Below are positions 1 to 20,331 of a DNA stretch of 36,610 nt, piece by piece. Each line of letters starts with the position of its first letter. Positions within the stretch are counted from its first letter, which is position 1. This DNA comes from Pseudomonadota bacterium (GTDB taxonomy: Bacteria > Pseudomonadota > Alphaproteobacteria > Micavibrionales > UBA2020): contig JAJZFS010000057.1 of NCBI GenBank assembly GCA_021805245.1, positions 1 through 36,610 on the forward strand, in the 5' to 3' direction. The notes below the pieces were generated by a model. It was given only the letters and a program-made list of their open reading frames with translations, did not search any database and was not told the DNA's origin. The position numbers were made by a program, and so were the translations under genes.

Positions 1-873
1 AGTGCGTGGTCTTTGCGCGTGGCGTGGGAGAGAAACAGCCTCGCGGCCGGGTTGAACGAGAAAACCGACGGGCATAACCAGCCTTATCCCGGCGCAAGCT
101 CGCTCATCGGGAGTTACGCGCAGCAGTACAACGATTATCTCAATATCTTTTGCGATCCGCACGGGAACGGCGGGCAGAACTACTGTCTCAATTCGGCAAC
201 CCTGAGTCCCCCTCTTTATAATGCCGACGTCGAACCCGTCAAATATATCTACAACAATCTGACGATTCCGATGGATAGCGCGGATAATGCCAGTCAAGGA
301 CAGGATGTGGCGACGGCCGTCAATGACATTATCAACAACATGGTCGGCATACCGGCGGAATCAACCATGACGCCGGGGGCGCTGGCCAGCGTCGCGGGGC
401 GTGAAGAGTGGATAGAGCGACGCTCTTATCTGGCACGCTATGCGGCGATCCGCTCGATCCCCGATCTGATCGCCTCATGGAGGATACCGGGCAGCGGCAG
501 CCAGCTGGGTCAAGAGATACATGACATGCGGACAAATACGACTTTCATAAAGAATGCGCCCGGTAACTACAATGGCCCGTCGTCGATGATGGGCGGTTTT
601 ACCTCACAGGACCCGAGTTACAGGGAAATCATGCATGCGGTTTCGATTGACCAGTTCAACACCGGACAGTTCGCGTTGGGGATGATGACCAACGAGAACA
701 GGCTGCAAATGGAAAAACTGAACTTGAGCGCGTTTTACCTGATGCAGTTGAGGGACTATTACAAATTGCTGGAGAGGACGGCACTGACGCTGGCGGTGCA
801 GGTCTCGATCCGTGACGAGCAGAAGATGAACTTGCTGTATCATGTTTTTGAAGCCGCGCCGATACAGAAATAA
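1..873 (+). CDS. Secreted-protein paralogue 1, C-terminal part (5' end outside window)
   Basis: The reading frame is open to base 1, so the true start and any signal peptide lie outside the window. The visible part is about 290 residues. It shares a pattern with the next two genes: an FCDP...C segment (two Cys about 12 residues apart), an ADVEP motif, an ERRSYLARYAAI block, and near the C-terminus a YREIMHA...F block followed by a long charged helix with an LxxxxLLERTAL-type end. These matches are seen directly and make the three genes tandem paralogues. I do not recognise the family with certainty. Their place 5.5 kb upstream of a Dot/Icm block and the C-terminal helix pattern recall IcmX/TraW-type periplasmic proteins, but that is a guess. 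The next gene follows after 12 bases, so they are probably one operon. Confidence 0.8.
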   Translation, partial: SAWSLRVAWERNSLAAGLNEKTDGHNQPYPGASSLIGSYAQQYNDYLNIFCDPHGNGGQNYCLNSATLSPPLYNADVEPVKYIYNNLTIPMDSADNASQGQDVATAVNDIINNMVGIPAESTMTPGALASVAGREEWIERRSYLARYAAIRSIPDLIASWRIPGSGSQLGQEIHDMRTNTTFIKNAPGNYNGPSSMMGGFTSQDPSYREIMHAVSIDQFNTGQFALGMMTNENRLQMEKLNLSAFYLMQLRDYYKLLERTALTLAVQVSIRDEQKMNLLYHVFEAAPIQK

Positions 874-885
874 GGGAACGGGCAA

Positions 886-2559
886 ATGAAGGCAACGGGA
901 CATATTCGTTTTTCCACCGCAGGGCTGCGTTTCGCGGCTGCGGCCGGATGCCTTGTTTTCGCCCTGACGGCTTTTCCGCTGCGCGGGTTCGCGCAGTGCG
1001 AGCAGCCACCCGCGGCGCAGACGGAAGCAAATACGGTGGCCAGCAACGAGACAAATGATATTACGGGCACCCTCATACCTGATGTTGAGAAAGCCTGGAG
1101 TACCGATGTGTTGCAATTGAGCACAACGCTGGGGAGTGAAAACAAAACAAGCTATGCCGGGATCCTGGCTCGTATGAACAAATTCTGGACCGACTGGTTT
1201 ACTGCCTGGCAGAACATGGCAGCGCAGCTTAATGCCTCTACGGATGACGAGACCCGGCAGTTGTCGAGTTTTAAAGACGCCAGCAATGCGCTGGCGGCGT
1301 CGCGCGACGAAGGCGAGCAAAGGGTCAAGGCCCAGAAGCTTTACCAGCCGACCGGCCAAGCCTGCCTTTTCGATTCGACGAATAAAGACCTGCCCAACAG
1401 CCAGCAAGTCACCAATGCGTTGGAAGACGCATACGAGTGGGACTTCGTGCAATTGGGCAACAATGAAAAAGTGTACACAGGCGCAAATCCCAACATACCC
1501 GCCTCTAACGGGAACGGAACTTATTCCCCGCAGGATTCGACCGCGCAATACGGCCCTGCGGAGGAGCAAAGCCGCCGCTGGTACAATTACGCCAATATAT
1601 TCTGCGATTACAGGGCGGAGAACGGCAATGCCGGTTGCGCGAGCCACCTGCCGGGCACTTATCCGCTTAAGGTGGGCTATACGCCGACGTTAACCGACAA
1701 TACAAAACCGCCGTATGCCGTTTTGAACCCCCTGTCCCCGACGCTGAACGACCCGCATTTGCTCGCATACTCCAACATGGATGTCGAGCCGACGCTGCTG
1801 TTGTTTTCCCAGTATACGGTCGACATGTACAACATAACCGAGCTGACGGCCATCGACCAGATGATGTTTAATATTACGGGGTACAGGATTCCGATGCCGA
1901 TGCTCACCACCGCCATGAGCGCTTTGCCCGGCATGGAGGAAACATTAAAGCGCCGCCGGTATATCGCGCAGATGTCTACCGTCAACGCGTTGCTCTATTC
2001 TCTGATCGCCGACCGTGCGCCCGGTCCGGGCGTCGGCTGTGCGACCGCGACTTGCGCCGGCGGCGGTAGTCCGCCCAGTGCAAACGCGCAGGCGATCTAT
2101 GCGCTGCGGACGAAGGAGTATGGAGCGACGCCGAATGCCGCCACGGACACAGCTATCCAGACTGCGGCGAGTTGCGCCTGGTGGAATGTTGCGTGCTGGA
2201 TCTCGAAGGGATGGTCTATTTTTTGGAACGGGTCGGTCAATACGCAGTTCGCTAATTCACAGGCGCAAACGCCGCCGCAGTATTTTATGGAAGCTTCCAT
2301 CACGCCGAGCAAGCGCGAAGTCCGCCAGGCTATCATCGAGCAACTGTGGGATCCCAATTATTACAAGGATCTTTACAACCACCCGTCGACCATCTTGCAG
2401 AAGGACGTGTATCTGAAAGCTTACAGTCTGAAACTCCTCTATGAGATGATCGAAAGGCAGGAGAGAATATCGGACGTTTACGCCGTGGAGACGGCCAATC
2501 TGCTGGCGCGTGTCAAGAGCACGTTGAAACCCATGGTCACCAGCGTGCCGGTTCAATAG
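886..2559 (+). CDS. Secreted-protein paralogue 2, unknown function
   Basis: A 557-residue protein with an N-terminal hydrophobic signal (about residues 14-36) ending in GFAQC; the mature protein would start with Gln-Cys-Glu, as in paralogue 3. The body has a helical N-terminal half, an LYQPTGQACLFDS segment, an FCDYRAENGNAGC segment, an MDVEP motif, an RRRYIAQMSTVNAL block, and a C-terminal region with WDPNYYKDLY and a long helix. Conserved Cys pairs suggest disulfides and thus an extracytoplasmic location. It is longer than its neighbours because of Gly/Pro/Thr-rich insertions around the middle and a Cys/Trp-rich patch (ASCAWWNVACW). The start has a purine-rich ribosome site (AAGGGAACGGG) just upstream. 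Function is unknown; an accessory role in the nearby type IVB system is possible. Confidence 0.85.
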   Translation: MKATGHIRFSTAGLRFAAAAGCLVFALTAFPLRGFAQCEQPPAAQTEANTVASNETNDITGTLIPDVEKAWSTDVLQLSTTLGSENKTSYAGILARMNKFWTDWFTAWQNMAAQLNASTDDETRQLSSFKDASNALAASRDEGEQRVKAQKLYQPTGQACLFDSTNKDLPNSQQVTNALEDAYEWDFVQLGNNEKVYTGANPNIPASNGNGTYSPQDSTAQYGPAEEQSRRWYNYANIFCDYRAENGNAGCASHLPGTYPLKVGYTPTLTDNTKPPYAVLNPLSPTLNDPHLLAYSNMDVEPTLLLFSQYTVDMYNITELTAIDQMMFNITGYRIPMPMLTTAMSALPGMEETLKRRRYIAQMSTVNALLYSLIADRAPGPGVGCATATCAGGGSPPSANAQAIYALRTKEYGATPNAATDTAIQTAASCAWWNVACWISKGWSIFWNGSVNTQFANSQAQTPPQYFMEASITPSKREVRQAIIEQLWDPNYYKDLYNHPSTILQKDVYLKAYSLKLLYEMIERQERISDVYAVETANLLARVKSTLKPMVTSVPVQ

Positions 2560-2568
2560 GGGAAGAGC

Positions 2569-3912
2569 ATGGAAAAGGACAGTCTGCGAAAAAAAACTGC
2601 ACTCCTCCGCCTTTCGCGGCAGGCGGCGCTGTTTTTTGCCGTGGCTTTATTCATGTTTGCTCCGAAACAGGCCGCGGCGCAATGCGAGATAGCGTCGGAT
2701 GCGAATCAGGCGATGAACCAGCTCGTCAGCCAGGATATCAACAATATGAACCTGTTCATCCAGCAGGAGGCGAACCCTCAAAATCAGGGGGCTAGCGGCA
2801 CGCCGGGCGGTTTTCTCGATAACATTTTTATCTCCATGTTCGGCCTGGATCCGACCGATCACGGTTTGGTGCAGTATTACACCAGCTATTACAAAGCCGT
2901 CGAAAAGGCGGTCAGTGACTGGGTAACGGCATTATATCCGGATCTTCAGAGTATGACGATGGAGCTGCATGTTGCGCACGTCGACCAGACACAAATGCTG
3001 GGCCAGCTGATGGACGCACAGGGGGCGGCGGCCGAAGAGACGGATATACAAAGGCTTGATGTGGAGGCGCATCGCCGTTATCAGCCGTCGAGACTGGCCT
3101 GCGATCTTGATTCGACAGGCCCCGGCCTGACGCGCGCCTATCAGATCGCGCGCGCTTTTAACCGCGGTCTGGCGCAGGACGACGATAATATCCTTGCGAA
3201 TGCCAAAGGCTCGTTTTCGGCAAACGGCCGTAACGAAGATCTGGCCTACATATGGAGTCAGTATGTGCAGAATTTCTGCGATCCGACAATGGGGGATCAG
3301 GGCTGCGCGGCAGCGGGGCCACTCGCGGACAAGCAAAGGAACATCGGCGCCTTGCTGTGGGGGCCGCAGCAGACAATCGACCCGACCAACAAGCAAAATA
3401 TCCTTATCATGCAATCTGCGCTCCGTTACATCGTCGACCCGCTGGTATCCGACCCGTTGACAAAGAGGGTTTCCGAGACGCCGGCCGGTCACACGCAGAT
3501 TCTTCTGCGGCACTCGCAACTGGCTTACGTCAACGACATTTACAACGTGTTGGGAATAATGCTGAGCGAGCGCCTCGGCGGCAGCGGCATTGACGTTTCG
3601 GGAATGGAAACGCCGGCCGGCGTTTCGACGGTCGATACCACGCCTGAAGGAACGGCGGGGGCGAGCTACAGTGAAATTATGCAGGCGATGACGCGTGACC
3701 GGTTCGAGGATCCCTATTACATGATGCGGATGATTGGTGATAAGTCGCAGGTTCAGCGCGAACAGCTGACATTGGACGCTTTGAAGCTGGAAACCATGAA
3801 CGATACCTTCCACAGGATGGAAGACAGGCTGTTTTTGGAGTCAGCCGAATACGCGCAGGATCTGAACCACGCGCTCCCCAAATCTGCGCCGAAATATACG
3901 CCTATGAAATAG
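2569..3912 (+). CDS. Secreted-protein paralogue 3, unknown function
   Basis: A 447-residue protein with a signal peptide (hydrophobic stretch about residues 18-37, ending AAAQC), so the mature end is again Gln-Cys-Glu. It carries the same ordered blocks as its two upstream neighbours: RRYQPSRLACDLDS, an FCDPTMGDQGC segment, an LRHSQLAYVNDI block, then YSEIMQAMTRDRF...PYYM and a terminal helix rich in Leu, Met and Glu. The Shine-Dalgarno-like GGGGAAGAG lies directly before the ATG, 9 bases after the previous stop. It is the last gene of the run; an AT-rich gap follows. No enzymatic motif is visible. A periplasmic or surface structural role is the most I would infer. Confidence 0.85.
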   Translation: MEKDSLRKKTALLRLSRQAALFFAVALFMFAPKQAAAQCEIASDANQAMNQLVSQDINNMNLFIQQEANPQNQGASGTPGGFLDNIFISMFGLDPTDHGLVQYYTSYYKAVEKAVSDWVTALYPDLQSMTMELHVAHVDQTQMLGQLMDAQGAAAEETDIQRLDVEAHRRYQPSRLACDLDSTGPGLTRAYQIARAFNRGLAQDDDNILANAKGSFSANGRNEDLAYIWSQYVQNFCDPTMGDQGCAAAGPLADKQRNIGALLWGPQQTIDPTNKQNILIMQSALRYIVDPLVSDPLTKRVSETPAGHTQILLRHSQLAYVNDIYNVLGIMLSERLGGSGIDVSGMETPAGVSTVDTTPEGTAGASYSEIMQAMTRDRFEDPYYMMRMIGDKSQVQREQLTLDALKLETMNDTFHRMEDRLFLESAEYAQDLNHALPKSAPKYTPMK

Positions 3913-4397: not shown

Positions 4398-5983
4398 GCT
4401 CCTTGCAGTGGCACATTCTCGGCGGTAACAACAAGCACAATATCGGCGCCAATTCAGGCCTCTGCGTTTACGAATATGAAGATGAAAAAGGCAAGACATG
4501 CCGCAAGGTGCTGCTGTTCGATGCCGGCGTTTTGCAGGGCGACAAGAACAAACCTGAATATCCATCTCTGGCGCAATCGGATACCATCCTGCCGGATTAC
4601 GCACGGTTCCTTTATAAAGCGGACGATCCCTCCCACAAGCCCGAGATGCCGATCGATTCCATTTTTCTGACGCACAACCATTCGGATCATTCCGGCGCTT
4701 TGCCGATGTTGATTCTGATGGGCTATAAGCTGCCGAAAATATATGCAACGCCCTATACCGCGCGCCGTTTGCAGCAGGATCTCAGCAACGAGGGAATCGA
4801 CCCCGCCGAGTGGCCGAAGATTTATACCATCGCGCCCGGCAAGGACATTCAGGAAGGCCCCGTCGACGTAAAAGCTTTCTGGGTCAGCCATTCGACGCCA
4901 CAGTCCGTGGGTTTCTTCATCGATACGCCGGACGGAACGATTTTGCACACCGGCGACTTTAAACTGGACCAGTCGGTGCTGTGGGGGCCGGCTTTCAACG
5001 AACAGCAATTCAAGCGCGTGGTCTCGAAGCCTGTCGACCTTTTACTGCTCGACTCGACGGGCGCGAACAAAGACGTGAACGCCGTAACGGAGCACGACAT
5101 GCGCGAGGCGCTGCACGATGTGATCGCCGAGAATCCCGGCAAGCGTATCGTTGTCGCGCTGATGAGCGGTTACGAAGAAAATTTGGCGTCCGTGGCGCAG
5201 GTCGCGGCCGAGGAAAAACGCACGCTGTGGGTGGCGGGCGCGGCGCATGAACAATCTTTGGCGGCCTTGCGCGATACCGGTCTTACGATGTCGGACCAGC
5301 TCGGCGTCAAGGTGGATGTACGTATTCTGGGGTCGCGCCGTACCGCGCGGGATCTCGCGCAGAAGGCGCCGCAAGATTCGGTCGTCGTCGTGACGGGCTC
5401 GCAGGGGCATGCGAACGCGGCTCTGACACGCGCGGCGGAAGGGCGTCATAACGCTCTTTCTCTCGATCCCGCCAAGGATGTCATTTTGTTCTGCGCGCCG
5501 ACCATGCCAGGTCAGGTCGGCCAGCGCAACAAACTTCTGGCGACGCTGAAGAGTAAAGGCTTTACGGTGCTGACCAACAATGACCTGCCGCTTTATCCGC
5601 CGAGCCACGCGCGTCTGCCGGAGATCATCGAGATGGTGAAGCTGGCCGATCCGAAACATGTCTTGCCCATTCACGGTTCGCGCCTGCTGCGCAAGGCCTG
5701 CGCCGAGGCGGTCGAGAAAATGGGGCGGAAAGCCGTGCAGGCCGATAACGGAGATGTCATCAAGGTTTCGCACCGCACGTCAAAATCCATCTCCCCCGAG
5801 ACAAAGGGGCGGGCACCGATGATCGGTCTCAAGACGCTGCAGGGGACGAACTGGAGTGACCGTTATTACATTCAGGTTTCCGCACCGGAAAAGAAAATTC
5901 CGGCAAAAGCCGGACAAAAAAACGCCAAGCAGCCCGCCAACGCCAATAAGCAGCCCCGGCCGCGCATTTTCAAAATCGATTAG
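4394..5983 (+). CDS. RNase J-like metallo-beta-lactamase-fold hydrolase
   Basis: A 529-residue protein of the metallo-beta-lactamase fold with the RNase J/beta-CASP layout. The metal motif HNHSDHSG (about residues 95-102) supplies the HxHxDH ligands; FWVSHST and LHTGDFKLD give later ligands; a beta-CASP-like segment spans roughly residues 220-400; and a PIHGSRLLRKAC segment near residue 430 carries the C-terminal His. The family comprises 5'-3' exo- and endoribonucleases of RNA processing and decay. The N-terminus (LGGNNKHNIGANS) differs from the usual LGGxGEIGxN of RNase J, and the C-terminal tail is Lys/Pro/Asn-rich, so this may be a diverged paralogue. The ATG at 4394 is chosen because it overlaps the upstream stop. 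Its own stop overlaps that of the convergent flgL. Confidence 0.8.
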   Translation: MSSLQWHILGGNNKHNIGANSGLCVYEYEDEKGKTCRKVLLFDAGVLQGDKNKPEYPSLAQSDTILPDYARFLYKADDPSHKPEMPIDSIFLTHNHSDHSGALPMLILMGYKLPKIYATPYTARRLQQDLSNEGIDPAEWPKIYTIAPGKDIQEGPVDVKAFWVSHSTPQSVGFFIDTPDGTILHTGDFKLDQSVLWGPAFNEQQFKRVVSKPVDLLLLDSTGANKDVNAVTEHDMREALHDVIAENPGKRIVVALMSGYEENLASVAQVAAEEKRTLWVAGAAHEQSLAALRDTGLTMSDQLGVKVDVRILGSRRTARDLAQKAPQDSVVVVTGSQGHANAALTRAAEGRHNALSLDPAKDVILFCAPTMPGQVGQRNKLLATLKSKGFTVLTNNDLPLYPPSHARLPEIIEMVKLADPKHVLPIHGSRLLRKACAEAVEKMGRKAVQADNGDVIKVSHRTSKSISPETKGRAPMIGLKTLQGTNWSDRYYIQVSAPEKKIPAKAGQKNAKQPANANKQPRPRIFKID

Positions 5984-6996
5984 AACGTCAGGTAATTGAC
6001 CAGCGACAGTTTGCTGACGAGGTTCGTCACCTGATAGGATGACGTGAGCTGCGTCTGCAGCGCCTGCATCTCGGTGATCGCTTTCGTCGTGTCGGCGCCG
6101 GTAAAGGTCGAAAGCTGGTTTTGCACGATCGTCAGGTCGGATGCGTTCTGATCTTTGATGGCCTTGACTTGCGCGAACTTGCCCGCCAGTGTTTGCGTTG
6201 TGGTGCTGATCTCGTTCACGCCCTTCTGGGCGGTCGTCAGGGCGTAGTTCATGAGGTTTTGAAAGTCGGGCCCCGTCGCGGTATTCGTCGCGCCGGGATA
6301 GGGCGTGTTGGCGACGAGTGCGAGCGCGCGGATCAGGTCCTGAAATCCCGCGCCGTCGCCTTTCACCGTATAGTCGACGTTGGTATTGGCGTCGACTTGC
6401 GTCGTCACATTGCCGGACGTTGCCAGGCTGGCCGAAAGGCCGAGGTTTGTGGCGGAGAAGCCGTTGATTGTCGTCGTCAGCGCCGACGTATTGCCGGTGG
6501 CGAGCCAGTTCTGGATCTGGGTGTTGAAGTTGGAGTTCATAATATTGCTGCCGGCGTAGGGCGGCTGCGACGAGCTGGAGCCGGCGAAGAGATATTGACC
6601 GTCGATGTTTTGGTTCATCATGTCCTGCAGCGTTTGCAGCCCTTGACTGGCGATCTGCTGGATGTTGGCGGCGTTGACGGGGCTGTTTTGCAATTGGGTC
6701 TGGATGGCGGCGACGAGGTTGTTGCCAACGGTGGTCATTTGCTGGAGCGCGCTGTTCATCATTGTCATCTTGTTCGAGACGTTGTCGATGTTGGCCTGAT
6801 ACCCCTGTATCAGCGGTTGCTGGCCGTTGAGATCCAGAACCGGCTTCACGTTGTTGCCGAGGCCGCTGTAGTCGGGGGAGAGCTGCCCTGTCGTTACTTG
6901 CTGCGACAAGTCGTTCAGTTGTTGGCGCAGCTCGGTCAGATTCGCCGACTGGGCCGTTGTCTGTCCCATCAGGGATACGCTGTTTGTCGTTGTCAT
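5980..6996 (-). CDS. flgL: Flagellar hook-associated protein 3 (FlgL)
   Basis: A 338-residue flagellin-superfamily protein. The N-terminal helix region (about 15-100) has the L-x-x-L-x-x-Q-x-x-T-G-Q pattern typical of FlgL (LNDLSQQVTTGQ), and the C-terminal helix contains ITEMQALQTQLTSSYQVT, the conserved coiled-coil partner. The middle is Asn/Thr/Ser-rich, and QYLFAGSSSSQPP matches the FlgL GxYLFAGxxxxxxPF motif. The protein forms the junction between hook-associated FlgK and the filament. It follows flgK by 33 bases with a good ribosome site (AAAGGAGA), so the two form an operon. The product is exported by the flagellar type III apparatus and therefore has no signal peptide. Confidence 0.92.
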   Translation of the reverse strand: MTTTNSVSLMGQTTAQSANLTELRQQLNDLSQQVTTGQLSPDYSGLGNNVKPVLDLNGQQPLIQGYQANIDNVSNKMTMMNSALQQMTTVGNNLVAAIQTQLQNSPVNAANIQQIASQGLQTLQDMMNQNIDGQYLFAGSSSSQPPYAGSNIMNSNFNTQIQNWLATGNTSALTTTINGFSATNLGLSASLATSGNVTTQVDANTNVDYTVKGDGAGFQDLIRALALVANTPYPGATNTATGPDFQNLMNYALTTAQKGVNEISTTTQTLAGKFAQVKAIKDQNASDLTIVQNQLSTFTGADTTKAITEMQALQTQLTSSYQVTNLVSKLSLVNYLTF

Positions 6997-7029
6997 GTTC
7001 TGTCTCCTTTAAGGAATCGTTGTAACCCT

Positions 7030-9117
7030 TTATGGCATGGTTTGGAGCAGGTCGTTAAAGAGCGTCTGCGTTGCGGTGATGACCTTGGCGGCGGCGGAGT
7101 AGGCGGATTGCACCTGGACCAAGGTGGTCATCTCCTGGTCGATATTCACGCCGGAGGTGTTCTGGTTGCGCGTCGTGAGCGTTGTCAGATAGGCTTGCTG
7201 GTTTTGTCCTTGCGTCTTGTTGAGATTGGCCGCCTCGCTCTGGTCGGAAATAGCGCTGCTGAGGTAGCCTTGCAGCGTGCTGTTGGAGAGCAGGCCTGTC
7301 GAGAGGTTTCCGGCCGGTCCGACGTTGCTCTGCCGGAAACTGGAGAAGGCGACGTTGACTGTGGCGACGCCCATTGCGGCGAGCGGTCCGCCGTTGGTGT
7401 CGAAGACGGTCAGCGCGCCGCCGTACGTCGGCGTCATGACAAGGTACCCGCTGCCGTTCAGGGAAGCGGTCATGCCGGAAATGGCGTTGAGTTTGGCCAG
7501 CAGTGTCGTCGACGTGTCTGCTGGCGTAATGGAGATGGTGGCCGGCGGCTGCGTGCCGACTTGCACGCTGAACGTCGGGTTGGGCATCGGCGTCGTTCCG
7601 GCGGGCAGGCCGAGGGCGGAGACGATGTTATTCCCGCCGTCCGTCAGCGTGACATCGCCTGCGTAATTGAGGGCGAGGTTGCCGGTCCCGTTGATGGCGG
7701 CGACGGTGCTGCCGAAGGCCGTGTTGATCTTCGAGACGACGGAGGCCGCCGTGTCCGTGTTGTTGACGGTGATGGTTTGCGGCGCGCCCGCGCCGAGCTG
7801 GATGGTGAAGGTGGCGGGAAACGCCGTGACGCCCGGCATCGTGCTGAGGTCGGGCGCATAGGCGGCGACATTGACCGTGCCGACGACGTTGTTGTTGGTG
7901 GTGAGGCCGAGCATCGTTTCCAGCGGCATGGCACCGGAAATATTGGCTGTACCCGTGGCCTGCTGGTACTGGTAATTGCCGAAGGCGTACATATTGATGC
8001 GGTTGATGACTTCGTTCGACCCTGCGGGCTGTGCAGGGCCGGTGGTCCCCTTCTGGATCAGGGAGGGATCGTTGACGATGGCGGTGTTGACTTGTATCAG
8101 CGTGGAGAAGCCGACGTAGGCCGGTGCCGCCGGCGCCGCCGTGTCTGGGGGGACTTTGCCGTTGGCATCGGTGAAAAGCGCAAGGCCTTCGTCGTTGAAG
8201 CGGGTGGCGAGCTTTTGTGAGAACTCGTCGAGCTGTGCCTGATATTGCGGGACGACCTGATCGCGCATGTTCAGGAGTCCGCCGAGCTGGCCGCCGAGGT
8301 TGCTTTGGGCGATGTCCGGTCCTGTGGGGCTGCCGACGGTGATACCGCTCAAACCGCCGCCGGGATAGTAGGACGTCGGCAGCATGTTGCTTTGGTGGAA
8401 GTAGAGCGTCTGCGCCGTTGCATTCGCCAGCATCTGTCCTTGCGGCGTGGCGACGTTGATCATCTGGCCTTGCTGTGACGTCGTAATCTGCATGTATTTC
8501 GAAAGATCGTTGATGGCGGCGTCGCGCTGGTCTTTCAGATCGGCGGTGCTTTGGTTTTCAGCCGAAAGAGTGGCAATCTGCGTATTCAGCGTGGCGATAT
8601 TGGTTATATCCTGATTGGCCTGCGCGAGAGCGGCGGCGATGTCGCTTTCCGATTGCGTGCGCAGGCTGTTCAGCAGGTTCGAGTATTGATTGATCTGCGA
8701 AGCCGTTTGCTGCGCATCCGTCAGCGTCTGGCTCAGCAGGGTCGTATCGTTGGGCGATTGCGACAATTGCGAGAATGAACTGGCAAGCTGCGTCAATTGG
8801 TCGTTGAGCGATGTGCCGCCGGTGGGCGAACCCTGAAAATCCTGAATTTTCTGAAAGTAGCTTTGTTGAACGGTGGTGTAATTCGTGACCGTTGTTTGCT
8901 GGTTGACGTCGCCGATAAGAGCCTTATTGACGGCCCGTGTCAGGTCTCCGGACATGGCGCCGACAGATTGGCCGTTAACGATTTCCGTTTCGGCCGGCAA
9001 AATTTTCCGCGTATAGCCGGGCGTGGAGGCGTTCGCCACGTTGTTTGATATGGTATCGATCTGCTGCTGGGCGACTTGCAGCCCTGATAATGCAGCATTT
9101 AATGCAATGGATGTCAT
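7030..9117 (-). CDS. flgK: Flagellar hook-associated protein 1 (FlgK)
   Basis: A 695-residue protein with the hallmark N-terminus of the rod/hook/HAP family: ALSGLQVAQQQIDTISNNVA followed by NASTPGYTRK (about residues 9-38). The C-terminus has the matching helix VNIDQEMTTLVQVQSAYSAAAKVITATQTLFNDLL. The variable middle is Thr/Ala/Gly-rich and contains two flagellin_IN-like blocks (FTIQLGAGAPQTITVNNTDT near 437 and FSVQVGTQPPATISITPADT near 517), which look like an internal duplication. It caps the hook below FlgL. The start is supported by GGAG about 8 bases upstream. A sigma-54-type promoter lies at 9181-9196. Confidence 0.95.
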   Translation of the reverse strand: MTSIALNAALSGLQVAQQQIDTISNNVANASTPGYTRKILPAETEIVNGQSVGAMSGDLTRAVNKALIGDVNQQTTVTNYTTVQQSYFQKIQDFQGSPTGGTSLNDQLTQLASSFSQLSQSPNDTTLLSQTLTDAQQTASQINQYSNLLNSLRTQSESDIAAALAQANQDITNIATLNTQIATLSAENQSTADLKDQRDAAINDLSKYMQITTSQQGQMINVATPQGQMLANATAQTLYFHQSNMLPTSYYPGGGLSGITVGSPTGPDIAQSNLGGQLGGLLNMRDQVVPQYQAQLDEFSQKLATRFNDEGLALFTDANGKVPPDTAAPAAPAYVGFSTLIQVNTAIVNDPSLIQKGTTGPAQPAGSNEVINRINMYAFGNYQYQQATGTANISGAMPLETMLGLTTNNNVVGTVNVAAYAPDLSTMPGVTAFPATFTIQLGAGAPQTITVNNTDTAASVVSKINTAFGSTVAAINGTGNLALNYAGDVTLTDGGNNIVSALGLPAGTTPMPNPTFSVQVGTQPPATISITPADTSTTLLAKLNAISGMTASLNGSGYLVMTPTYGGALTVFDTNGGPLAAMGVATVNVAFSSFRQSNVGPAGNLSTGLLSNSTLQGYLSSAISDQSEAANLNKTQGQNQQAYLTTLTTRNQNTSGVNIDQEMTTLVQVQSAYSAAAKVITATQTLFNDLLQTMP

Positions 9118-9360
9118 AATTCAAACTCCAGGTTTGTTTTCTGCCGCCGCCGACAAAAAACACTTTTCCTCTGTTTATTAAGCAAGAGGCGTGCCAAGGC
9201 TGGTTGTATTTATGGTATTTATAGGTTCTTGACTTTCTTTATATGTAATAGTGAAGTGCAGGTTGCTTAAAAAATAAGTCTTCGTAGACAGTTAGGACTA
9301 GACGTTGTTAACAAAGGGTGGCTATCCTGACAGTCTGTGATAACGGGGGATTCTGAGACG
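9118..9360. promoter_or_regulatory. Divergent control region between flgK and dotI
   Basis: This 243-base gap separates the flagellar operon (minus) from the Dot/Icm block (plus). Besides the sigma-54 site it has a perfect 10-base palindrome, TTGTTAACAA (9305-9314), about 47 bases before the dotI ATG. A TTGACT at about 9228 has no good -10 at 17 bases. The plus-strand promoter for the secretion genes must lie here, but I cannot place it with confidence. Confidence 0.35.
9181..9196 (-). promoter_or_regulatory. Sigma-54 (RpoN) promoter of flgKL
   Basis: On the minus strand the sequence reads TGGCACGCCTCTTGCT, a complete match to the -24/-12 consensus TGGCACG-N4-TTGCW. Transcription would begin about 12 bases downstream of the -12 GC, giving a leader of roughly 50 bases before the flgK ATG. 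RpoN control of late hook-filament genes is established in several flagellated alphaproteobacteria such as Caulobacter. An activator of the FlbD/NtrC type would be required; none is encoded here. Confidence 0.85.
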
Positions 9361-10476
9361 ATGTCTGATATTGTGCCTAATACGGGGGCTGATATTACCA
9401 ACGAGCCGATAAAAAGAGCGGATGATGATGCTGTAAATGCCGGCACGCCACCAAGCGCGCCGCCAGCAGATATGTATGCGGGTATGCCGCAAAACGAGAT
9501 GCCTTACGCGCCGCCACCAGAACCTGCACCGCCCGTTGCACCACCAGTAGAGCCCGTTGCACCACCAGTAGATATGTATGCGGGGATACCGCAAAACGAG
9601 ATGCCGCCGCCGATGCCCGCGCCACCTGCTGCGCCTCCTCCGCCGCCCGCTGCCCCGCTGCGGGCATCTCATGCCGCACCGCCGCCGAAGATGCCGCAGC
9701 CTGAGTCTTTCGAAGGGGAAGAACCGCCGGTGGAACCGGTGGCGCCTCCCGTGAAAAAACCCGGCCGTGCCGCTGGCAAAGACGCCAAAGGCGCCAAAGA
9801 TGCCAAGGCTGCAAAAGCCGCGCCGCAGGAAGAAGATACCACCGGCGGACCGTTGATGACGGTTTTGGTGCGTAATGAATTTTATCGTGACGGTTTCCGC
9901 AATATGATGTGGCTCGCCGTTATCGAGGCCGTTGTCATCGCAGGCTTGCTTGTGACGTTCATTTCTTTTATGAACACGACAAAAGCGCAGGATCATTATT
10001 TCGCGACAACGGCGGACGGACGCATCATACAGCTCGTGCCGCTGGGGCGTCCCAACATGAATACCTCTGCTCTTCTGTCATGGGCGGCGCAAGCCGGAAC
10101 GGCGGTTATGACGTTCGGCTTCGACGATTACCAGCGGCGTTTGCAGCAGTCGTCACGCTTTTTCACGCGCCATGGCTGGCAAACTTTCGCCAGCGCCTTG
10201 CAGTCCGCACGCATCATAGAATCCATCACGGCGTTGAATCAGGTTGTCTCCGCCGTGCCGCGCAGCGCGCCAATCCTGACGCAGGAAGGTATTTACAACG
10301 GAAAATTCAGGTGGATCGTGCAATTGCCTTTGACCGTCACATACCAATCGGGGACGAGTACCCGTACGGACAATATGAACGTTACGCTCGTTATTGACCG
10401 CGTGCCGTCGCTGGAGAATCCAAGTGGCGTCGGTATCGATCAGTGGATTGCAACAACCAACGGTTCTGGCGGTTAA
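9361..10476 (+). CDS. dotI: DotI/IcmL-type inner-membrane protein of type IVB secretion
   Basis: A 371-residue protein with three parts: a proline-rich cytoplasmic N-terminus (about 29-135), one membrane helix (about 183-204, AVIEAVVIAGLLVTFISF), and a periplasmic DotI/IcmL domain with the family pattern LVPLGRPNMNTSALLSWA, FDDYQRRLQQSSRFFTRHGW and GVGIDQWIA. In Legionella DotI is about 212 residues and forms a VirB8-like inner-membrane complex with DotJ; here the extra length is the proline-rich N-terminus. That extension has a repeat DMYAG(M/I)PQNEMP and a run of Lys/Ala before the helix. An upstream GTG at 9337 would add eight residues; the ATG is preferred because the next residues resemble a normal start. 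It is the first gene of the block visible here. Confidence 0.85.
   Translation: MSDIVPNTGADITNEPIKRADDDAVNAGTPPSAPPADMYAGMPQNEMPYAPPPEPAPPVAPPVEPVAPPVDMYAGIPQNEMPPPMPAPPAAPPPPPAAPLRASHAAPPPKMPQPESFEGEEPPVEPVAPPVKKPGRAAGKDAKGAKDAKAAKAAPQEEDTTGGPLMTVLVRNEFYRDGFRNMMWLAVIEAVVIAGLLVTFISFMNTTKAQDHYFATTADGRIIQLVPLGRPNMNTSALLSWAAQAGTAVMTFGFDDYQRRLQQSSRFFTRHGWQTFASALQSARIIESITALNQVVSAVPRSAPILTQEGIYNGKFRWIVQLPLTVTYQSGTSTRTDNMNVTLVIDRVPSLENPSGVGIDQWIATTNGSGG
9469..9605 (+). repeat. Repeats inside the dotI proline-rich region
   Basis: A 35-base unit encoding DMYAG(M/I)PQNEMP occurs at 9469-9503 and 9571-9605 with two mismatches. Between the two copies lies a tandem 21-base unit, CCCGTTGCACCACCAGTAGA plus one variable base, at 9532-9552 and 9553-9573, encoding PVAPPVE/PVAPPVD. 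The near identity at DNA level points to recent duplication. Confidence 0.85.
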
Positions 10477-10485
10477 TTGTGCAGT

Positions 10486-11121
10486 ATGGATACTAAACAG
10501 CTATCTTCAAAAACATCTGCTCTGATCTTGGGGCAAAGCGAGGATTACCGCAGCGGCGCGGTAATCATGATGCGCATTGTCGGTTTCGAGACCTTGGCCA
10601 TTCTTGCGCTGACGATGCTGCTGGGTTTCGTGATCATGACGCAGAAAAATCATGACCGCTATTTCGCGGCTATGGGCACTGGCAGATACTTGGAAATGCA
10701 AGCTATGTCTTATCCGAATATGAGCAGGACCGCAGTCTCCGACTGGGTCGCGGAAGCGGCTAGCGAGGTTATGACATTCGGATTTAACGACGTTGACCAG
10801 CGGTTTGCCGTTTCGCGTCGTAATTTTACGCCTGACGGATGGGAGAGTTTTCGTAAGGCTCTAACAAAAAGCAGCGTATTGACGAATATGATGCAGTTGC
10901 AGCAGATGATCACCTCTGTTCCTGCGGGCGTGCCGACCTTAAGTCAGGTGGGGCTGATCGATGGGCATTATAGTTGGGTGTTTGATATGCCATTGCTGGT
11001 CACCTTTCGTGCCGGTGGGGTTCACCGGACAATCATGGCTCATGTGCACGTTGTTGTGGATAAAGTATCGCCGGAGGACAATCCCAGGGGGCTGGGTATT
11101 AGTTCCTGGTATATTAGCTGA
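10486..11121 (+). CDS. dotJ: Second DotI-family protein (DotJ/IcmM position)
   Basis: A 211-residue paralogue of the preceding protein without the proline-rich extension: a short cytoplasmic N-terminus, one membrane helix (about 30-50), then a periplasmic domain matching it block by block (MSYPNMSRTAVSDWVAEA, FNDVDQRFAVSRRNFTPDGW, NPRGLGISSWYIS). Legionella also has two related proteins, DotI and the shorter DotJ, in a heteromeric inner-membrane complex; in Legionella dotJ/icmM precedes dotI, whereas here the short copy is second. Unlike Legionella DotJ, which is little more than the membrane anchor, this copy keeps the whole periplasmic domain, so it may be a second DotI. A TTG at 10477 is an alternative start. 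Confidence 0.75.
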   Translation: MDTKQLSSKTSALILGQSEDYRSGAVIMMRIVGFETLAILALTMLLGFVIMTQKNHDRYFAAMGTGRYLEMQAMSYPNMSRTAVSDWVAEAASEVMTFGFNDVDQRFAVSRRNFTPDGWESFRKALTKSSVLTNMMQLQQMITSVPAGVPTLSQVGLIDGHYSWVFDMPLLVTFRAGGVHRTIMAHVHVVVDKVSPEDNPRGLGISSWYIS

Positions 11122-11251: not shown

Positions 11252-12325
11252 ATGAAACGTCTACTTTTGGGCCTGTCTTTCGTTGTGCTGCTCAGCATGG
11301 GTTGTTCTGTAGCGTTTGCGCAGGGCGAGAACCATTTTAATCAGGAATTGCAGGCCTTTCAGAATAAGAACAGCGGCTCGGGTAATAGTGACGCCAGCGC
11401 GCCGCCTTCTCCGCTGGGGCCTGCCGGAAATCTTCCGCTGTCCAAGCCTGCGCCGGCAACGGCCAATGCACTGGGTATGCCGAGTGTGCAGACACCAAGC
11501 CAGTTGGCCGCTGAGGAAGCCGCCGCGAGAGAAAAAATGAAGCAGCAGACATTTGATACCGCGATACATTCGCTTCTGCCGATGGATCCGGACCAGATCC
11601 GCGAGTTGCTCCAGATTTTTGAGAAGAGCCGCAAGGCTTCCGAAGATCCTATTGCGGTGCCTGTTCCCAAGGTGGTTCTCGAAACCGTTTCTCTGGCGCC
11701 GGATCAGGTGCCGCTTGTCATTCACACGTCTCCCGAGCGCGTCACGACATTGAGTATTCTTGATTCAAGCGGTGAGCCATGGCCGATCCGCGATGTCAGT
11801 TGGGCTGGGAAATTCTCCATTGTGTCACCGGGGTCGGGTGGCAGCATTGTGCGTATCACGCCGATGACCGCGCATACCATGGGCAACCTGTCCATCCGGT
11901 TGCTGGGTCTGACGACGCCCGTTACCTTTACGCTGGACACCGGCATGAAAGAAGTCGACTACAGATTCGATGCACGTATTCCCAAGCACGGCCCGCTGGC
12001 CAAGCCTGATCTCATCGTCAACGACGGATTGAAGGCATCTGTCGGCGGGGATGACAACCTTGTACAGTTCATGGACGGAACGCCGCCAAGCGGCGCGGCA
12101 AAACTTGAGGTCGACGGCACAGACGGGCGCACGGCCGCCTGGAGCCTGTCGAACCAGATATATTTACGCACGCCGTTAACGCTGCTTTCTCCCGGGTGGA
12201 GCTCCAGCGTCACTTCCGCCGACGGAACGAACGTATATGTGCTTAATAACACGCCTGTCGTGCTCCTCTCTGATGGAGGGAAGATGGTGCGTGCCCATAT
12301 TGTCGCTACCGAGGATATGCCATGA
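11252..12325 (+). CDS. dotH: DotH/IcmK outer-membrane core protein
   Basis: A 357-residue exported protein with a signal peptide (about 1-23, ending AFAQ). An Asn/Ser/Pro-rich linker follows. The DotH family domain begins with LLPMDPDQIRELLQIFEKS (about 109-127), where Legionella IcmK has a very similar L(x)P(x)xPEQI motif. The C-terminal half is beta-rich with LSILDSSGEPWPI, an all-beta pattern like VirB9/TraN proteins. DotH with DotC and DotD builds the outer-membrane ring that contacts DotG. Its stop overlaps the dotG start (ATGA at 12322-12325), so translation is coupled. Lipoproteins DotC and DotD, needed in Legionella to place DotH, are not in this window. Confidence 0.88.
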   Translation: MKRLLLGLSFVVLLSMGCSVAFAQGENHFNQELQAFQNKNSGSGNSDASAPPSPLGPAGNLPLSKPAPATANALGMPSVQTPSQLAAEEAAAREKMKQQTFDTAIHSLLPMDPDQIRELLQIFEKSRKASEDPIAVPVPKVVLETVSLAPDQVPLVIHTSPERVTTLSILDSSGEPWPIRDVSWAGKFSIVSPGSGGSIVRITPMTAHTMGNLSIRLLGLTTPVTFTLDTGMKEVDYRFDARIPKHGPLAKPDLIVNDGLKASVGGDDNLVQFMDGTPPSGAAKLEVDGTDGRTAAWSLSNQIYLRTPLTLLSPGWSSSVTSADGTNVYVLNNTPVVLLSDGGKMVRAHIVATEDMP

Positions 12326-13647
12326 TAGATGATGATTTAGACGCACCGGAAGATTTTGAACAAGACGCCGCCGCCGAGAAGCCCTCTCTGCGCGAGATAT
12401 GGGATAGTAACCCTGTTCTGAAGCTTGTCGCTATTGTGCTGGTTGTGGTCGTGCTTTTGGGAGCGTATCTGATTTTCTCTCCGAAAGAGAGTACCGGATC
12501 CAAAACCGTCATTGGTATGGTCGGATCCCAGACCAAGCAGATTCCCGGTACAAAAATCGTCGACCCTGCTTACCGCAAGGCTCTTGAAGAAGAGAACAAG
12601 AAGAAAGAGCAAGAGGCTCGTCAGACGGGCGGCAGCGCCATGCCGGTACCCATCGCCATTTCAAGAGGCACCGGCTTGCAGATCCCGCAAATTCCGCAGG
12701 CGCCTCAGTCTGACGTTTTGGCGGAATGGAGGCGTGTGGCCAATGAGGAACAGATGAAGGCCGCGCAGAACAAGATTCAGGCGGAAAGCGCGCCGCCGCC
12801 GCCGACGGTTCCGATGGTCAAAGCGATTCGTCCGGTGCAGGTGGTTAAGGTCAACACGAAGGAAGCGCAGCTGATAGCCCAGCAAATGAGGGTTATTCTT
12901 CACGCGCAGCAGCCTTTTGCGGCGCAGGTCGTAAACGTCACGGCTGCAAAATCTCGCTACGAACAAATGCTGCAGAAGGAAAAAGAGGACCAGAGCAAAC
13001 AAGCTGCGCAGGGGACGGGATCCTCGTCCGGCACGGGCGGAGCGGCTTCCGGAGGGGGGGCTTCCGGCGCTTCCGGCACTGGCGCTTCCGGCAAGGTCAT
13101 TATTGCAGCGGGCTCTGTCAACTATGCGCAGTTGCTTACCAAGATCGACTCTGATGTTCCGGGGCCCGTTCTAGCGCAGGTTCTGTCCGGGCCGTTTTCC
13201 GGCGCGCGCATGATCGGCTCGGTTCAAAAGGAAAAGGACTTCGTAGTTATCAAGTTCAATACTGTGGTGAAAGATACCGTCAGCTACAGGATCAAGGCCG
13301 TTGCGGTTGACCAAAACACGACGCTGGCGGGCATGGCGACGTCCGTGAACCATCACTATGTTGAGAAGTTCGTGCTCCCGGCGGCCGCAGCGTTCCTGAC
13401 GGGGTATAGCGCCGCTTTGGCGCAGCCGGCGCAGCAACAAACGGCGACAGCCGGCGGCGGCGTGACGGCGACGCAATCACAGTCGTCAACGAAGCAGAGT
13501 ATGTTCCAGGGCTTGCAGGTCGCCTCGCAGTCTGTGAGCGGCGCGCTCAATACGATGGCGCAAGAGCCAACGACGATTATTGTCGCCAAGGGAACGACCA
13601 TGGGTATTTTTTATACGCAGACAGTGACGACAAAGGACGCGCAGTAA
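12322..13647 (+). CDS. dotG: DotG/IcmE, VirB10-like core channel protein
   Basis: A 441-residue protein: acidic cytoplasmic N-terminus, one membrane helix (about 32-52), a charged and Pro-rich periplasmic stretch, a Gly/Ser/Ala linker (about 232-257) and a C-terminal VirB10/TrbI-like domain from about 263 that starts with AGSVNYAQLLTKIDSDVPGP and includes GARMIGSVQKEKDFVVIKF. The DotG signature is this C-terminal domain. Legionella DotG has more than 1000 residues because of a long run of pentapeptide-like repeats between helix and domain; that region is absent here, as in plasmid TraO-type homologues. DotG spans the envelope and joins inner- and outer-membrane parts. Confidence 0.9.
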   Translation: MIDDDLDAPEDFEQDAAAEKPSLREIWDSNPVLKLVAIVLVVVVLLGAYLIFSPKESTGSKTVIGMVGSQTKQIPGTKIVDPAYRKALEEENKKKEQEARQTGGSAMPVPIAISRGTGLQIPQIPQAPQSDVLAEWRRVANEEQMKAAQNKIQAESAPPPPTVPMVKAIRPVQVVKVNTKEAQLIAQQMRVILHAQQPFAAQVVNVTAAKSRYEQMLQKEKEDQSKQAAQGTGSSSGTGGAASGGGASGASGTGASGKVIIAAGSVNYAQLLTKIDSDVPGPVLAQVLSGPFSGARMIGSVQKEKDFVVIKFNTVVKDTVSYRIKAVAVDQNTTLAGMATSVNHHYVEKFVLPAAAAFLTGYSAALAQPAQQQTATAGGGVTATQSQSSTKQSMFQGLQVASQSVSGALNTMAQEPTTIIVAKGTTMGIFYTQTVTTKDAQ

Positions 13648-14823
13648 ATGAATGATGATATCGATGTAGAGGATTTCGACGATCAGGGCGCGCCTGCCGA
13701 TTTAGAAGACGGCGACGTGACGGAACAGCCGGCACCGAAGCGTGGCGGCGGCGCACTGCTCAAGATCGTGATTCTCTTTGTCGTTATTGCGGGCGGTGTG
13801 GGTGCCTATCTTAACTTTAAAAATAATCCCCTGTTGCACCGTATTCTGGCACAGCATGGTATTGGGCTGCCGGGGCTGAAAGTGGTGGATCAGCATCATG
13901 CGATGCCCCCCCTTCATCCTATGGCCCCTGTCGCCGCGCATGTGGAAAAAATAGCGCCACTTGCGCCGTCCGGAAATTCTCTGCCTGTCGTGCATGAGCC
14001 GACGCCGTCATCGGCGGCGTTGTCGCCGCCTGCATTGGGGGCGCCGGTGACGCCTGCGCCAATAGCAACGGCACCCGCACCTATAGCAACGGCGCCGTCG
14101 CCGATTTCAGGCGCACCGCCGTCGCCGTTCTCCATTCCGTCGCAACAGCCCGCTGCGGCTTCTCAGAAAAGCAGTGGAAACACGGCGTCGTTGCAGATGC
14201 CTGCCCCGATGGGTATGCCCACGCCTGAGGATGATCATGCCAAGAATAACGCTCCGGCCATGCCGACTATCCCTGTTCCTGCCGTGAACAAGATAGACGT
14301 CGCGCCGGTGCAGGATACGCACACCAAAATGCCCCCGCCGCCGTCTGCCATGCCTGACATGATGACGGCACCGGCCCCGGATGAACAGGCACCGGCCGAG
14401 CAGGCTTCTGTGCAGCCGTCTCATCAGACTGCCGACGCCAATGATGATTCTGCTGAAGTACAGAAGCTCAAGAGAAAAATAAAGCTTCTAGAAAACACGA
14501 TAAAGCAGCTTCAGCAGGCACCGGTTGTCCCGCATCATGGAGCGCATAGAACGTTGCACCATCGTGTCGTGCACAATAACCAGCATGTAGTACATCATCA
14601 TTATCATCATGAAGTGCGCCGCCATCAGCCCGTTGCAAAATCAACTTGGGTTCTGAAAGCGGCCCAGCCGGGTGTTGCCTGGATTTCGCACAGGGGATCC
14701 AAGGTTCTGCATAAGGTTCAACCCGGGGATACGCTGCGGGGCATCGGAGAGGTTGAATTCATTGTCCACGATTCATCAGGTCATTGGGTCGTTGTCGGGA
14801 CAAAGGGCAGAATCAGCCAATAG
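13648..14823 (+). CDS. dotF: DotF/IcmG-like inner-membrane protein
   Basis: A 391-residue protein starting directly after the dotG stop. It has an acidic N-terminus, a membrane helix (about 38-56), a long Pro/Ala/Met-rich region, a short coiled coil (about 270-290, KLKRKIKLLENTIKQLQQ), a striking histidine-rich stretch (about 296-328, with about 15 His) and a C-terminal globular domain (about 330-391) with GVAWISHRGSKVLHKVQPGD and WVVVGTKGRISQ. Its position between dotG and dotE, bitopic topology and coiled coil match DotF/IcmG (TraP on IncI plasmids). Sequence similarity outside the C-terminal domain is not something I can judge, so position weighs heavily. In Legionella DotF associates with DotG and has been linked to substrate contact. 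Confidence 0.75.
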   Translation: MNDDIDVEDFDDQGAPADLEDGDVTEQPAPKRGGGALLKIVILFVVIAGGVGAYLNFKNNPLLHRILAQHGIGLPGLKVVDQHHAMPPLHPMAPVAAHVEKIAPLAPSGNSLPVVHEPTPSSAALSPPALGAPVTPAPIATAPAPIATAPSPISGAPPSPFSIPSQQPAAASQKSSGNTASLQMPAPMGMPTPEDDHAKNNAPAMPTIPVPAVNKIDVAPVQDTHTKMPPPPSAMPDMMTAPAPDEQAPAEQASVQPSHQTADANDDSAEVQKLKRKIKLLENTIKQLQQAPVVPHHGAHRTLHHRVVHNNQHVVHHHYHHEVRRHQPVAKSTWVLKAAQPGVAWISHRGSKVLHKVQPGDTLRGIGEVEFIVHDSSGHWVVVGTKGRISQ

Positions 14824-15025: not shown

Positions 15026-15946
15026 ATGGCTCGCTATCTAAAAAGAGTTTCTGGGCTTTCTCTCGTTGTGCTGCTCGCTTCGACGGCACCTGCCTTTGCT
15101 GCTCCGGCGGCTGGTACTGCGGGTGCGATATTGGCGTCGATCACAACTTCCGTTACCAACCTGCCCAACATCTTCTCTGCCGCAGCTTACATACTTGGTT
15201 TATTGTTTGCCATGACGGGTGTTTTCAAGTTCAAGGACCATGTCGACAACCCGCAGCAAACCCCCATTAGTGCCGGCGTTAAGCGCATGATCGCCGGGGG
15301 GATGTTGTTTGCGACACCATTCATGGCAGCGGCCGTGCAGGGAACGCTTGATGGCGGCGGCGGCACGGCCATAGGCGGTGCGCACGTACACGGTTCCGCC
15401 GGTCTTACCGGCATGGATTTGATGATCACGCAGTTTATCGGGAATATCGCCGCGCCAGCCATTATTCTTCTGGAAGCGTTTGCCTATATCGGCGCAATCG
15501 CTCTTTTAATTGTCGGCATTATCCGTCTGACGAAGACGGCACAGGAAGGGCCGCGCGGACCTGCCGGTCTCGGCACGCTTATGACTTTCATAGCCTCCGG
15601 CGCGCTGTTTTCCTTTAGCGACATGGCGGGTATTTTTTCCAATAGTTTGTTCGGAACGTCGACGGTGGCCACTTTTTCGAGCATCAGCACAACGGTCATT
15701 ACCGCCGCCGATGCCGCCCAGGTCGAGCCCGTCATTGATTCCGTCATGGTCTTTGTCATGATCGTCGGGCTCATTGCGTTTGTCCGCGGGCTATTCGTGT
15801 TGAAGTCCTTTGCAGACGGCAACACGCAGACGTCTCTGGCCCAGGCGCTGACGTTCCTGATCGGAGGTACGATGGCGATTAACCTCGGCCAGCTTATCAA
15901 CTTTCTGGAGAAGACCGTCGGCGTAACCGGCCTTACATTTAGCTAG
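15026..15946 (+). CDS. dotE: DotE/IcmC-family membrane protein, three-module form
   Basis: A 306-residue polytopic protein with a signal-like N-terminus (1-25, ending AFAA). It contains three helix-loop-helix modules: helices near 50-67 and 88-105 around FKFKDHVDNPQQTP; near 149-166 and 181-197 around RLTKTAQEGPRGPAG; near 240-259 and 281-300 around LFVLKSFADGNTQTS. The first module closely resembles the neighbouring DotP protein; the last two resemble IcmC/DotE (IAFVRGLFVLKSF, FLIGGTMAINLGQLINFLEKT). Legionella IcmC has about 194 residues and two modules, so this protein appears to be enlarged by a DotP-like unit. DotE, DotP and IcmV are related small inner-membrane proteins whose mechanistic role is unclear. 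Confidence 0.82.
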   Translation: MARYLKRVSGLSLVVLLASTAPAFAAPAAGTAGAILASITTSVTNLPNIFSAAAYILGLLFAMTGVFKFKDHVDNPQQTPISAGVKRMIAGGMLFATPFMAAAVQGTLDGGGGTAIGGAHVHGSAGLTGMDLMITQFIGNIAAPAIILLEAFAYIGAIALLIVGIIRLTKTAQEGPRGPAGLGTLMTFIASGALFSFSDMAGIFSNSLFGTSTVATFSSISTTVITAADAAQVEPVIDSVMVFVMIVGLIAFVRGLFVLKSFADGNTQTSLAQALTFLIGGTMAINLGQLINFLEKTVGVTGLTFS

Positions 15947-16464: not shown

Positions 16465-17162
16465 TTGGCTTATCTAAGATTGACGCCCGGCATTGGTTAC
16501 TTGTCCGATGCCGGGCGCATTCTTTCTCAGGATGCGCAAAGACCGCCGGAAGATCTGCGAACGCGGGTGTTTGCCAGAGATGACAATACCTGCCGTTATT
16601 GCGGTTTCCAGGCGAAGAAATATCAGGAATTGAATTTTACCGGGCAGAGCGACGCGCCGCTGAAGGCGGATGACTATGCGACCGCCTGATTTTTTGCTAT
16701 CAGTGTTTCCATCTGGAGAAGATAGATCACATGCAGTCAGGCGCCGTCATCTGGCTGCCGGAGATAGGGCAGGCTCTGCTGCATCACGTTTGCAGGGCGA
16801 TTTACGTTGCGCGCATTTCCCGCGGGCCCATGGCGGATGCGGCGCGCGATGCCATGGAAGCGTTACTGGCGCGCAAGGAAGAAGCCGTAAAACGCCTCGG
16901 CACGGACAGCCCGAAAATTTTATCGACCGTACTGCAGGATTTTCTCGAATCCAAAGAATATAAGCTGCGTATGAACAAACTGAAGGGGTTTCGCATCCTG
17001 CCGCTGGACCGCCGCATTATCAAAGAGGGCGAACTTGAGTTCAATCAGTTTCCGCAAGTACTGGCATTCTGGCGTTCCAAGGACGGTCCTTTTGGAGATT
17101 TTCCGCCACGCAAATGGGGTGAGCTGTTTTACGAGGTACGCAACCTGAAAGCCAAAGCATAA
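16465..17162 (+). CDS. dotN: DotN/IcmJ zinc-binding coupling-complex protein, split by a frameshift
   Basis: Two frames together give one IcmJ-like protein of about 232 residues. The first (16465-16689, TTG start) ends TGA after an HNH-like segment RVFARDDNTCRYCGFQAKKYQE. The second runs in the -1 frame: read back from ATG 16731 it gives IFCYQCFHLEKIDHMQSG, then IWLPEIGQALLHHVCRAIY. Adding one base after the TG at 16687-16688 (for example TGC ATT) joins them as YATACIFCYQCFH, restoring the second Cys-x-x-Cys pair. In Legionella DotN is a zinc protein that bridges DotL with the DotM/IcmS/IcmW adaptors. The break lies next to a run of six T, so a sequencing or assembly error is as likely as a real mutation. 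No -1 slippery heptamer precedes the stop. Confidence 0.85.
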
Positions 17163-20200: not shown

Positions 20201-20331
20201 ACAGGATTGTCGAGGAAATGGTCAGTTCCACCAAGGTCAGCCTTGAAGAACTGCAAAAGCAGGATGCAGCGAAAAAGAAAGCTCCAAATGCGAACAAGCC
20301 GCCGCCGACGTCTGCCGGCGCCGCGTCTTAA
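17281..20331 (+). CDS. dotO: DotO/IcmB ATPase, VirB4-like
   Basis: A 1016-residue protein, the usual size for DotO. The N-terminal half carries the family pattern (MSFASADGSLMTLVRIDGA) and acts in docking; the C-terminal half is a RecA-like ATPase with Walker A AQPGGGKSVLMNT (about 474-486), a Walker B-like RLCYDEFHRT (about 787-796), and arginine-rich VRDVREGRKRGIQIILASQM typical of VirB4/TraU proteins. DotO is a cytoplasmic hexameric ATPase at the base of the type IVB channel where it assembles with DotB. It is the last gene of the block; its TAA overlaps the end of a decayed convergent gene. The Lys/Pro-rich tail (last 30 residues) looks flexible. Confidence 0.95.
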   Translation: MAILDKILSPFVRALRQPVEAFIRLETSDDDMSFASADGSLMTLVRIDGARQIIGDSEYKKILDDCVVKLGARFDRPGHALQIYFVRAPERIDEEIKMLLRPNREAARNIGLEIDDIFDERGKNLGRYVAHEEIYFVLWTRPVILTKADFAREKERARKRKWVVAPNAQYPFAAVEALRTRHKSFINAILPALQEMGIQAAAIDVHEALRIIRINLFQGSADSNWKACLPGDTIPPRAQEHKRDVSELLWPSLPQQLATVSGRVINDHTIEMGRHVWSGVDMVLGPQDPLPFPALLSRLAENRTPFRMSILLEGGGVQGMAMQSFLSSILSVTNPENKQIKDSLEGLSALARNEPVVKLRVSFATWAPKGNLDLLEDRTSELMQAVESWGYCQVSQLSGDPMDCVMSSALGISVASTAPPGIAPLYEVMKLLPWQRASSPFEKGSILFRTTDGRIWPYQTGTNVTTTWFDLVMAQPGGGKSVLMNTLNLGTCLTAGISKLPFVAVIDIGPSSAGLISLIRDALPPNRRSEVAAHALQMTQQYAINPFDTKLGMRYPQVTERSFLIELLTLLCTPPGQVDPYDGISQLAGMVVDEMFRWRDDSVANAEPRPYLPRVDNTVDEALREHGIAIQTGAYWWDVVDFLFDKGLFYEAELAQRYAVPTLGDAVAAARRPQIQNLLDKTSIGASAETVIHAFERMITSSVREFPILSSVTRFSLAGVRLCALDLADVAPQGDATADRQTAIMYMMGRHALVTPWWINEEALAQMAPKYRVFHGGRLQDFAETPKRLCYDEFHRTSKSKSVRNQLVRDVREGRKRGIQIILASQMLQDFDDDMVDLATGVWILGAAISDGAVEATQERFGLTDTARWIMRHKLTGPKAGGAPLLLVLGTTEGRCEQHLINTLGPVELWAFSTSVEDVLVRTKLYARLGAGQARRLLAANFPGGSARSEIRRRVVLLSEKGDVANATVSAVIDRIVEEMVSSTKVSLEELQKQDAAKKKAPNANKPPPTSAGAAS

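Follow-up and report, generated by a model that had tools for sequence, protein, structure and literature searches.

Five divergent icmX-like genes kept one of each in two families of Micavibrio-like bacteria

The 36,610-nucleotide stretch of DNA analyzed here (the window), contig C99 in a draft genome totalling 2.25 Mb, opens with three tandem genes. We identify their products as IcmX/TraW proteins, VirB5-type subunits of a type IVB secretion system (T4BSS), and propose that they belong to a set of five divergent, non-redundant IcmX proteins used jointly by one machine, a reading to which we give a probability of roughly 0.8. Their membership in IcmX/TraW is well supported. The novelty lies in copy number and not in the component, as five icmX genes are kept one of each across two families of Micavibrio-like bacteria. 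In known systems IcmX, TraW and VirB5 are counterparts and form a pentamer, and DotA, the VirB6 counterpart, is also pentameric (PMC12624023; PMC12857230; PMC12981334).

Pairwise BLASTP among the three window proteins gave E = 8e-9, 3e-14 and 6e-9 at 23-27% identity and, together with a family HMM, bears out the paralogy claimed in an earlier note that had described three tandem paralogues. The coordinates of that note are also right, but its count needs revision. A second contig, C19 (locus L041), terminates within gene 1, and the sequence at its end coincides with that of the window beginning at about base 15. Read in reverse, C19 carries the end of dotC, dotB, icmT, a TcpQ-domain protein and p1, complete at 504 aa, together with the 5' half of p2. 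The earlier note had asked about further copies upstream of base 1; one is present there, and the tandem copies number four (p1 to p4), spanning C19 and the window downstream of dotD-dotC-dotB-icmT. A fifth copy, X, is longer (686 aa) and lies on contig C84, unlinked to the tandem array.

L041 2-796 (-), contig C19: 5' half of p2, from the overlap of C19 and the window
1-873 (+), 5' end open: icmX-like paralogue p2 (gene 1), C-terminal 290 aa; family HMM E = 3.6e-63, start overlapped by the end of C19
886-2559 (+): icmX-like paralogue p3 (gene 2), 557 aa, putative signal peptide, mature start QCE; HMM E = 5e-124, AF2 model
2569-3912 (+): icmX-like paralogue p4 (gene 3), 447 aa, putative signal peptide, mature start QCE; HMM E = 9.8e-156, AF2 model
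L044 6826-8886 (+), contig C84: copy X, found with the family HMM

Between icmT and p1 lies a putatively secreted 342-aa protein with a TcpQ domain (PF10671, E = 6.9e-14; L041 2422-3450, - strand), and a promoter and terminator scan 3' of p4 found nothing beyond chance. The N-terminus of copy X is extended by a Cys-rich region of about 300 aa, and the total length of X varies widely among relatives, mostly from 640 to 1207 aa. Pfam and PDB searches with this extension returned no match, leaving a by-eye impression of a lysozyme-like N-terminal region without backing from either. The extension may have a separate role.

The icmX array shares a cluster with dotC-dotB-icmT and with the dotI, dotH, dotG and dotO genes of the window; DotA is also encoded in the genome.

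9337-10476 (+): DotI/IcmL; NF038072 E = 4e-59, over the cut-off
10477-11121 (+): second DotI/IcmL-like protein; PF11393 E = 2.4e-36
11252-12325 (+): DotH/IcmK; PF12293 E = 1.3e-73
12322-13647 (+): DotG/IcmE; NF033900 E = 9e-43
13648-14823 (+): DotF/IcmG-like, weak; NF038218 E = 1.7e-4
15026-15946 (+): TraQ-like/DUF6750 protein; NF033883 E = 1.1e-9, PF20535
16055-16459 (+): DUF6750-like (TraR/IcmD-type), weak; PF20535 E = 0.008
16731-17162 (+): IcmJ/DotN-like, weak; NF038221 E = 1.1e-4
17281-20331 (+): DotO/TraU ATPase; tblastn against plasmids

The tblastn search with DotO/TraU matched 3,762 plasmid records, and the full-length matches were 23-45% identical and annotated TraU where named. Of the two tandem DotI/IcmL genes (window 9337-11121), the first has an N-terminal extension that is long and rich in proline. 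flgL- and flgK-like genes lie on the opposite strand between the icmX array and dotI-dotH-dotG (window 5980-9117, - strand) and also occur near the cluster in another genome of the order, G052 (L042 10669-14024).

Pfam and NCBIfam scans of the single window proteins gave no useful match, and PDB searches by sequence gave no true match for the family or for TraW. Profile comparisons reached further. Scanning 47 family members against NCBIfam detected TraW in four (best E = 1.9e-6), and when the NCBIfam TraW model (NF033888) was run against the whole genomes of 55 relatives its matches were mostly ORFs of the icmX-like family; no icmX-like member reached the model's cut-off, and the sequences are about 13% identical to TraW. 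In the other direction, the family HMM was run on nine plasmid T4BSS loci comprising 328 ORFs and recovered all five annotated TraW proteins (E = 1.8e-11, 2e-9, 1.1e-7, 6.7e-6 and 0.0012), as well as four unannotated TraW-like ORFs, with the best other ORF at E = 0.049. TraW-like ORFs among the HMM matches include those of Methylorubrum (5.4e-18), a Stenotrophomonas plasmid and a Desulfosarcina plasmid; on a plasmid of Desulfosarcina ovata, two TraW-like genes lie in tandem, both annotated as hypothetical (L070 22919-24073 and 24171-25175, + strand). Alignments to TraW cover most of the conserved domain, including the TraW motif SxREFE, with which the YxEIM..F motif of the earlier note aligns, and hhalign of the family against TraW gave a probability of 94 (E = 1.4e-7, 268 columns).

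The plasmid relatives of the family sit in T4BSS operons. TraW of IncI1/IncL/M-type T4BSS plasmids (NF033888) resembles the window proteins in its conserved domain, its N-terminal hydrophobic leader and its T4BSS operon partners. It differs in being a single copy placed after dotO/traU and before traX-traY, whereas here four tandem copies follow icmT and one is unlinked.

Fold comparison pointed the same way. AF2 models of p4 (mean pLDDT 72, 37 sequences) and p3 (mean pLDDT 70, 34 sequences), both of middling confidence, agreed on their best PDB match, chain AP1 of 9ngy, an in situ structure of the Legionella DotA-IcmX protochannel. The p4 model reached Z 13.1 across 252 residues (next 8.0) and the p3 model Z 12.4 across 244 residues (next 6.4), the structural alignment showing about 13% identity. 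Foldseek with the p4 model likewise placed 9ngy_AP1 first with probability 1.00, at an E-value of only 0.013. A DotA query identified DotA in 9ngy as chain FP1 (1048 aa; 10 chains over two entries), and we therefore took AP1 to be IcmX. Since helical bundles can score Z 13 without kinship, we count the fold jointly with the sequence evidence. Together they back the suggestion of the earlier note that these genes encode an IcmX/TraW-like part of the type IVB machine; its further description of a lineage-specific family of no recognised function and a candidate undescribed component gives way to a known component, IcmX/TraW/VirB5. The type IVA counterparts VirB5, TrwJ and CagL (PMC12624023; PMC12857230) lie beyond the reach of the sequence and fold tools used, with CagL appearing weakly in the structural match list (Z 3.9).

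The five copies are only 19-27% identical to one another and share a set of positions that includes, in gene 3 numbering, C39, C178, Y232, G242, C246, T269, G307, R335 and S366. Judged by eye, without a signal-peptide program, the N-termini of p3 and p4 consist of a hydrophobic stretch followed by AxA-QCE, and p1 is similar. The Gln-Cys-Glu mature start reported earlier holds for the two genes for which it was named (...GFAQCE and ...AAAQCE) and is missing from the other three copies. Most of the motif blocks described as shared by all three window genes are clear in two of them, with DVEP missing from gene 3, RYQP from gene 1 and YxEIM from gene 2, and "Cys-rich" overstates gene 3, which has 4 cysteines.

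We examined the history of the five genes in all genomes available to the analysis from two families, the window's own GTDB family (f1, 18 genomes) and a second GTDB family (f5, 7 genomes), merging by hand pieces split across contig ends before counting copies. Exactly five icmX copies, of which four form a tandem array and one lies apart, were found in 16 of 18 f1 genomes and 6 of 7 f5 genomes (22/25 overall). Two of the exceptions are draft assemblies broken into fragments (G002 and G027); the third, G008, has no array and also no dotB, so that an assembly gap or loss of the whole cluster looks likelier than selective loss of icmX. In a maximum-likelihood tree of 70 f1 and f5 proteins, p1, p2, p3, p4 and X formed five clades (UFBoot 99-100, SH-aLRT 95-100), each holding members of both families, and gene order was the same in both. 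The clade labels required 4 changes on the tree, the minimum possible, compared with 42.8 in shuffles, and no clade contained a second copy from any of the genomes placed on the tree. Because each clade includes both families, the tree places the origin of the five orthologous icmX lineages before the two families split. The source genome has one dotH, one dotB and one dotA ORF, and we conclude from these single copies that the five icmX genes serve one machine.

Across the order, a profile built from p4 orthologues matched 124 of 142 genomes, with Micavibrio sp. among the named loci. The earlier note had named frequent homologues in genomes without Dot/Icm as counting against its proposal, and this pattern was not observed: nearly all matched genomes of the order have DotA, which was found in 51 of the 55 genomes searched. 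Copy numbers elsewhere differ from those in f1 and f5. In a sister family, f3, two to five icmX genes lie in one array, usually with a long last member, and independent duplications have arisen that are genus-specific (G019, G050). In one f3 genome (G051), apparent selective loss of icmX was set aside, as dotB and dotH were also not found at the thresholds used. All f3 genomes examined have three tandem dotA/TraY genes, roughly orthologous as D1-D3 (for example L113 2756-11208, - strand), and the DotA ring of this family may therefore be heteromeric. Family f2 has one dotA and, where found, two icmX-like genes; f7 has one dotA and, where found, one icmX-like gene. DotA has duplicated separately in f5 and in one f1 genus. 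We considered matched copy numbers of icmX and dotA and rejected the idea, since the number of dotA genes ranges from one to four where there are five icmX, and the number of icmX genes from two to five where there are three dotA.

G052 and G085, two genomes from a single genus that each consist of one 2.5 Mb contig and probably belong to Micavibrio aeruginosavorus, both match the icmX profile, and G052 carries two icmX genes, DotH and three DotA. The presence of icmX genes in these two complete genomes, if they are of that species, stands in contrast to the genome paper of M. aeruginosavorus ARL-13, in which no type IV secretion system was reported (PMC3189940).

How might five IcmX proteins be used? 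By analogy with Legionella, an IcmX pentamer would sit atop pentameric inner-membrane DotA to form a closed central periplasmic channel, and on activation this DotA-IcmX channel would rearrange to span the envelope. In Legionella, whose IcmX is an exported Dot/Icm protein, as is predicted for the proteins described here, the literature attributes the pentamer to one protein; here there are five genes. We infer that the five products occupy this channel position and that all five are used at the same time, p1 to p4 and X acting as specialized subunits of one machine. Such joint use is favored by the strictness with which one copy of each is retained, by the conserved positions that the copies share and by the presence of a single set of core genes. 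The simplest arrangement would be a heteropentamer with one of each product, the alternative being a set of specialized tips. Five genes and a five-subunit ring make the heteropentamer the neatest reading, in which the ring would be obligate, one of each, and would have arisen from a homopentamer through gene duplications that preceded the split of the families. We hold it tentatively, at well under even odds, because f3 departs from five and dotA numbers vary independently.

The paralogues might instead each assemble their own homopentamer, giving five tips that either replace one another or stack on a common DotA base, for instance to serve different targets or stages. The low identity among the copies suits this arrangement, as do the tip position of VirB5 proteins in related systems (PMC12857230) and the variable copy number of f3, whose own duplications in some genera are what a repertoire predicts. 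The f1 and f5 genomes look unlike a repertoire selected for variety, with one of each copy, five in 22 of 25 and no second copy within a clade among the genomes on the tree, and we regard separate tips as possible but doubtful.

We think it unlikely that a single copy, such as X or p4, is the true IcmX and that the others are derived secreted accessory proteins (adhesins, pore parts or substrates). Lengths and N-termini do differ greatly, X is unlinked and bears its large extension, and in Legionella, too, some of the IcmX is released, as a shortened form, into the medium (PMC12981334). Against this, all five copies retain one common domain in which certain Cys, Gly and Arg positions are invariant, p3 and p4 fit the IcmX fold about equally, and the four tandem copies all lie beside the core genes dotB and icmT. 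A family of secreted surface proteins unrelated to the T4BSS and merely nearby would account for the absence of Pfam matches and of PDB matches by sequence, but it is contradicted by the TraW homology, the IcmX fold and the gene order adjoining dotB-icmT, and we consider it very improbable.

The proposed joint use of five IcmX proteins by one machine has a partial parallel in Rickettsiales, where multiple divergent VirB6 paralogues (rvhB6) provide several copies of a stalk component in one type IV secretion system. That case concerns VirB6 and not VirB5, and a type IVA system and not a type IVB one. The structure of the DotA-IcmX protochannel was released only in 2025, and the channel is believed to control the passage of effectors. 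With five strictly conserved icmX genes instead of a single one, this lineage offers a natural experiment in turning a homopentameric channel into an asymmetric one. If the heteropentamer is correct, it would give a type IVB secretion machine an asymmetric gate with five positions. The T4BSS genes indicated in Micavibrio-like predators would make this secretion system a candidate machine for acting on prey.
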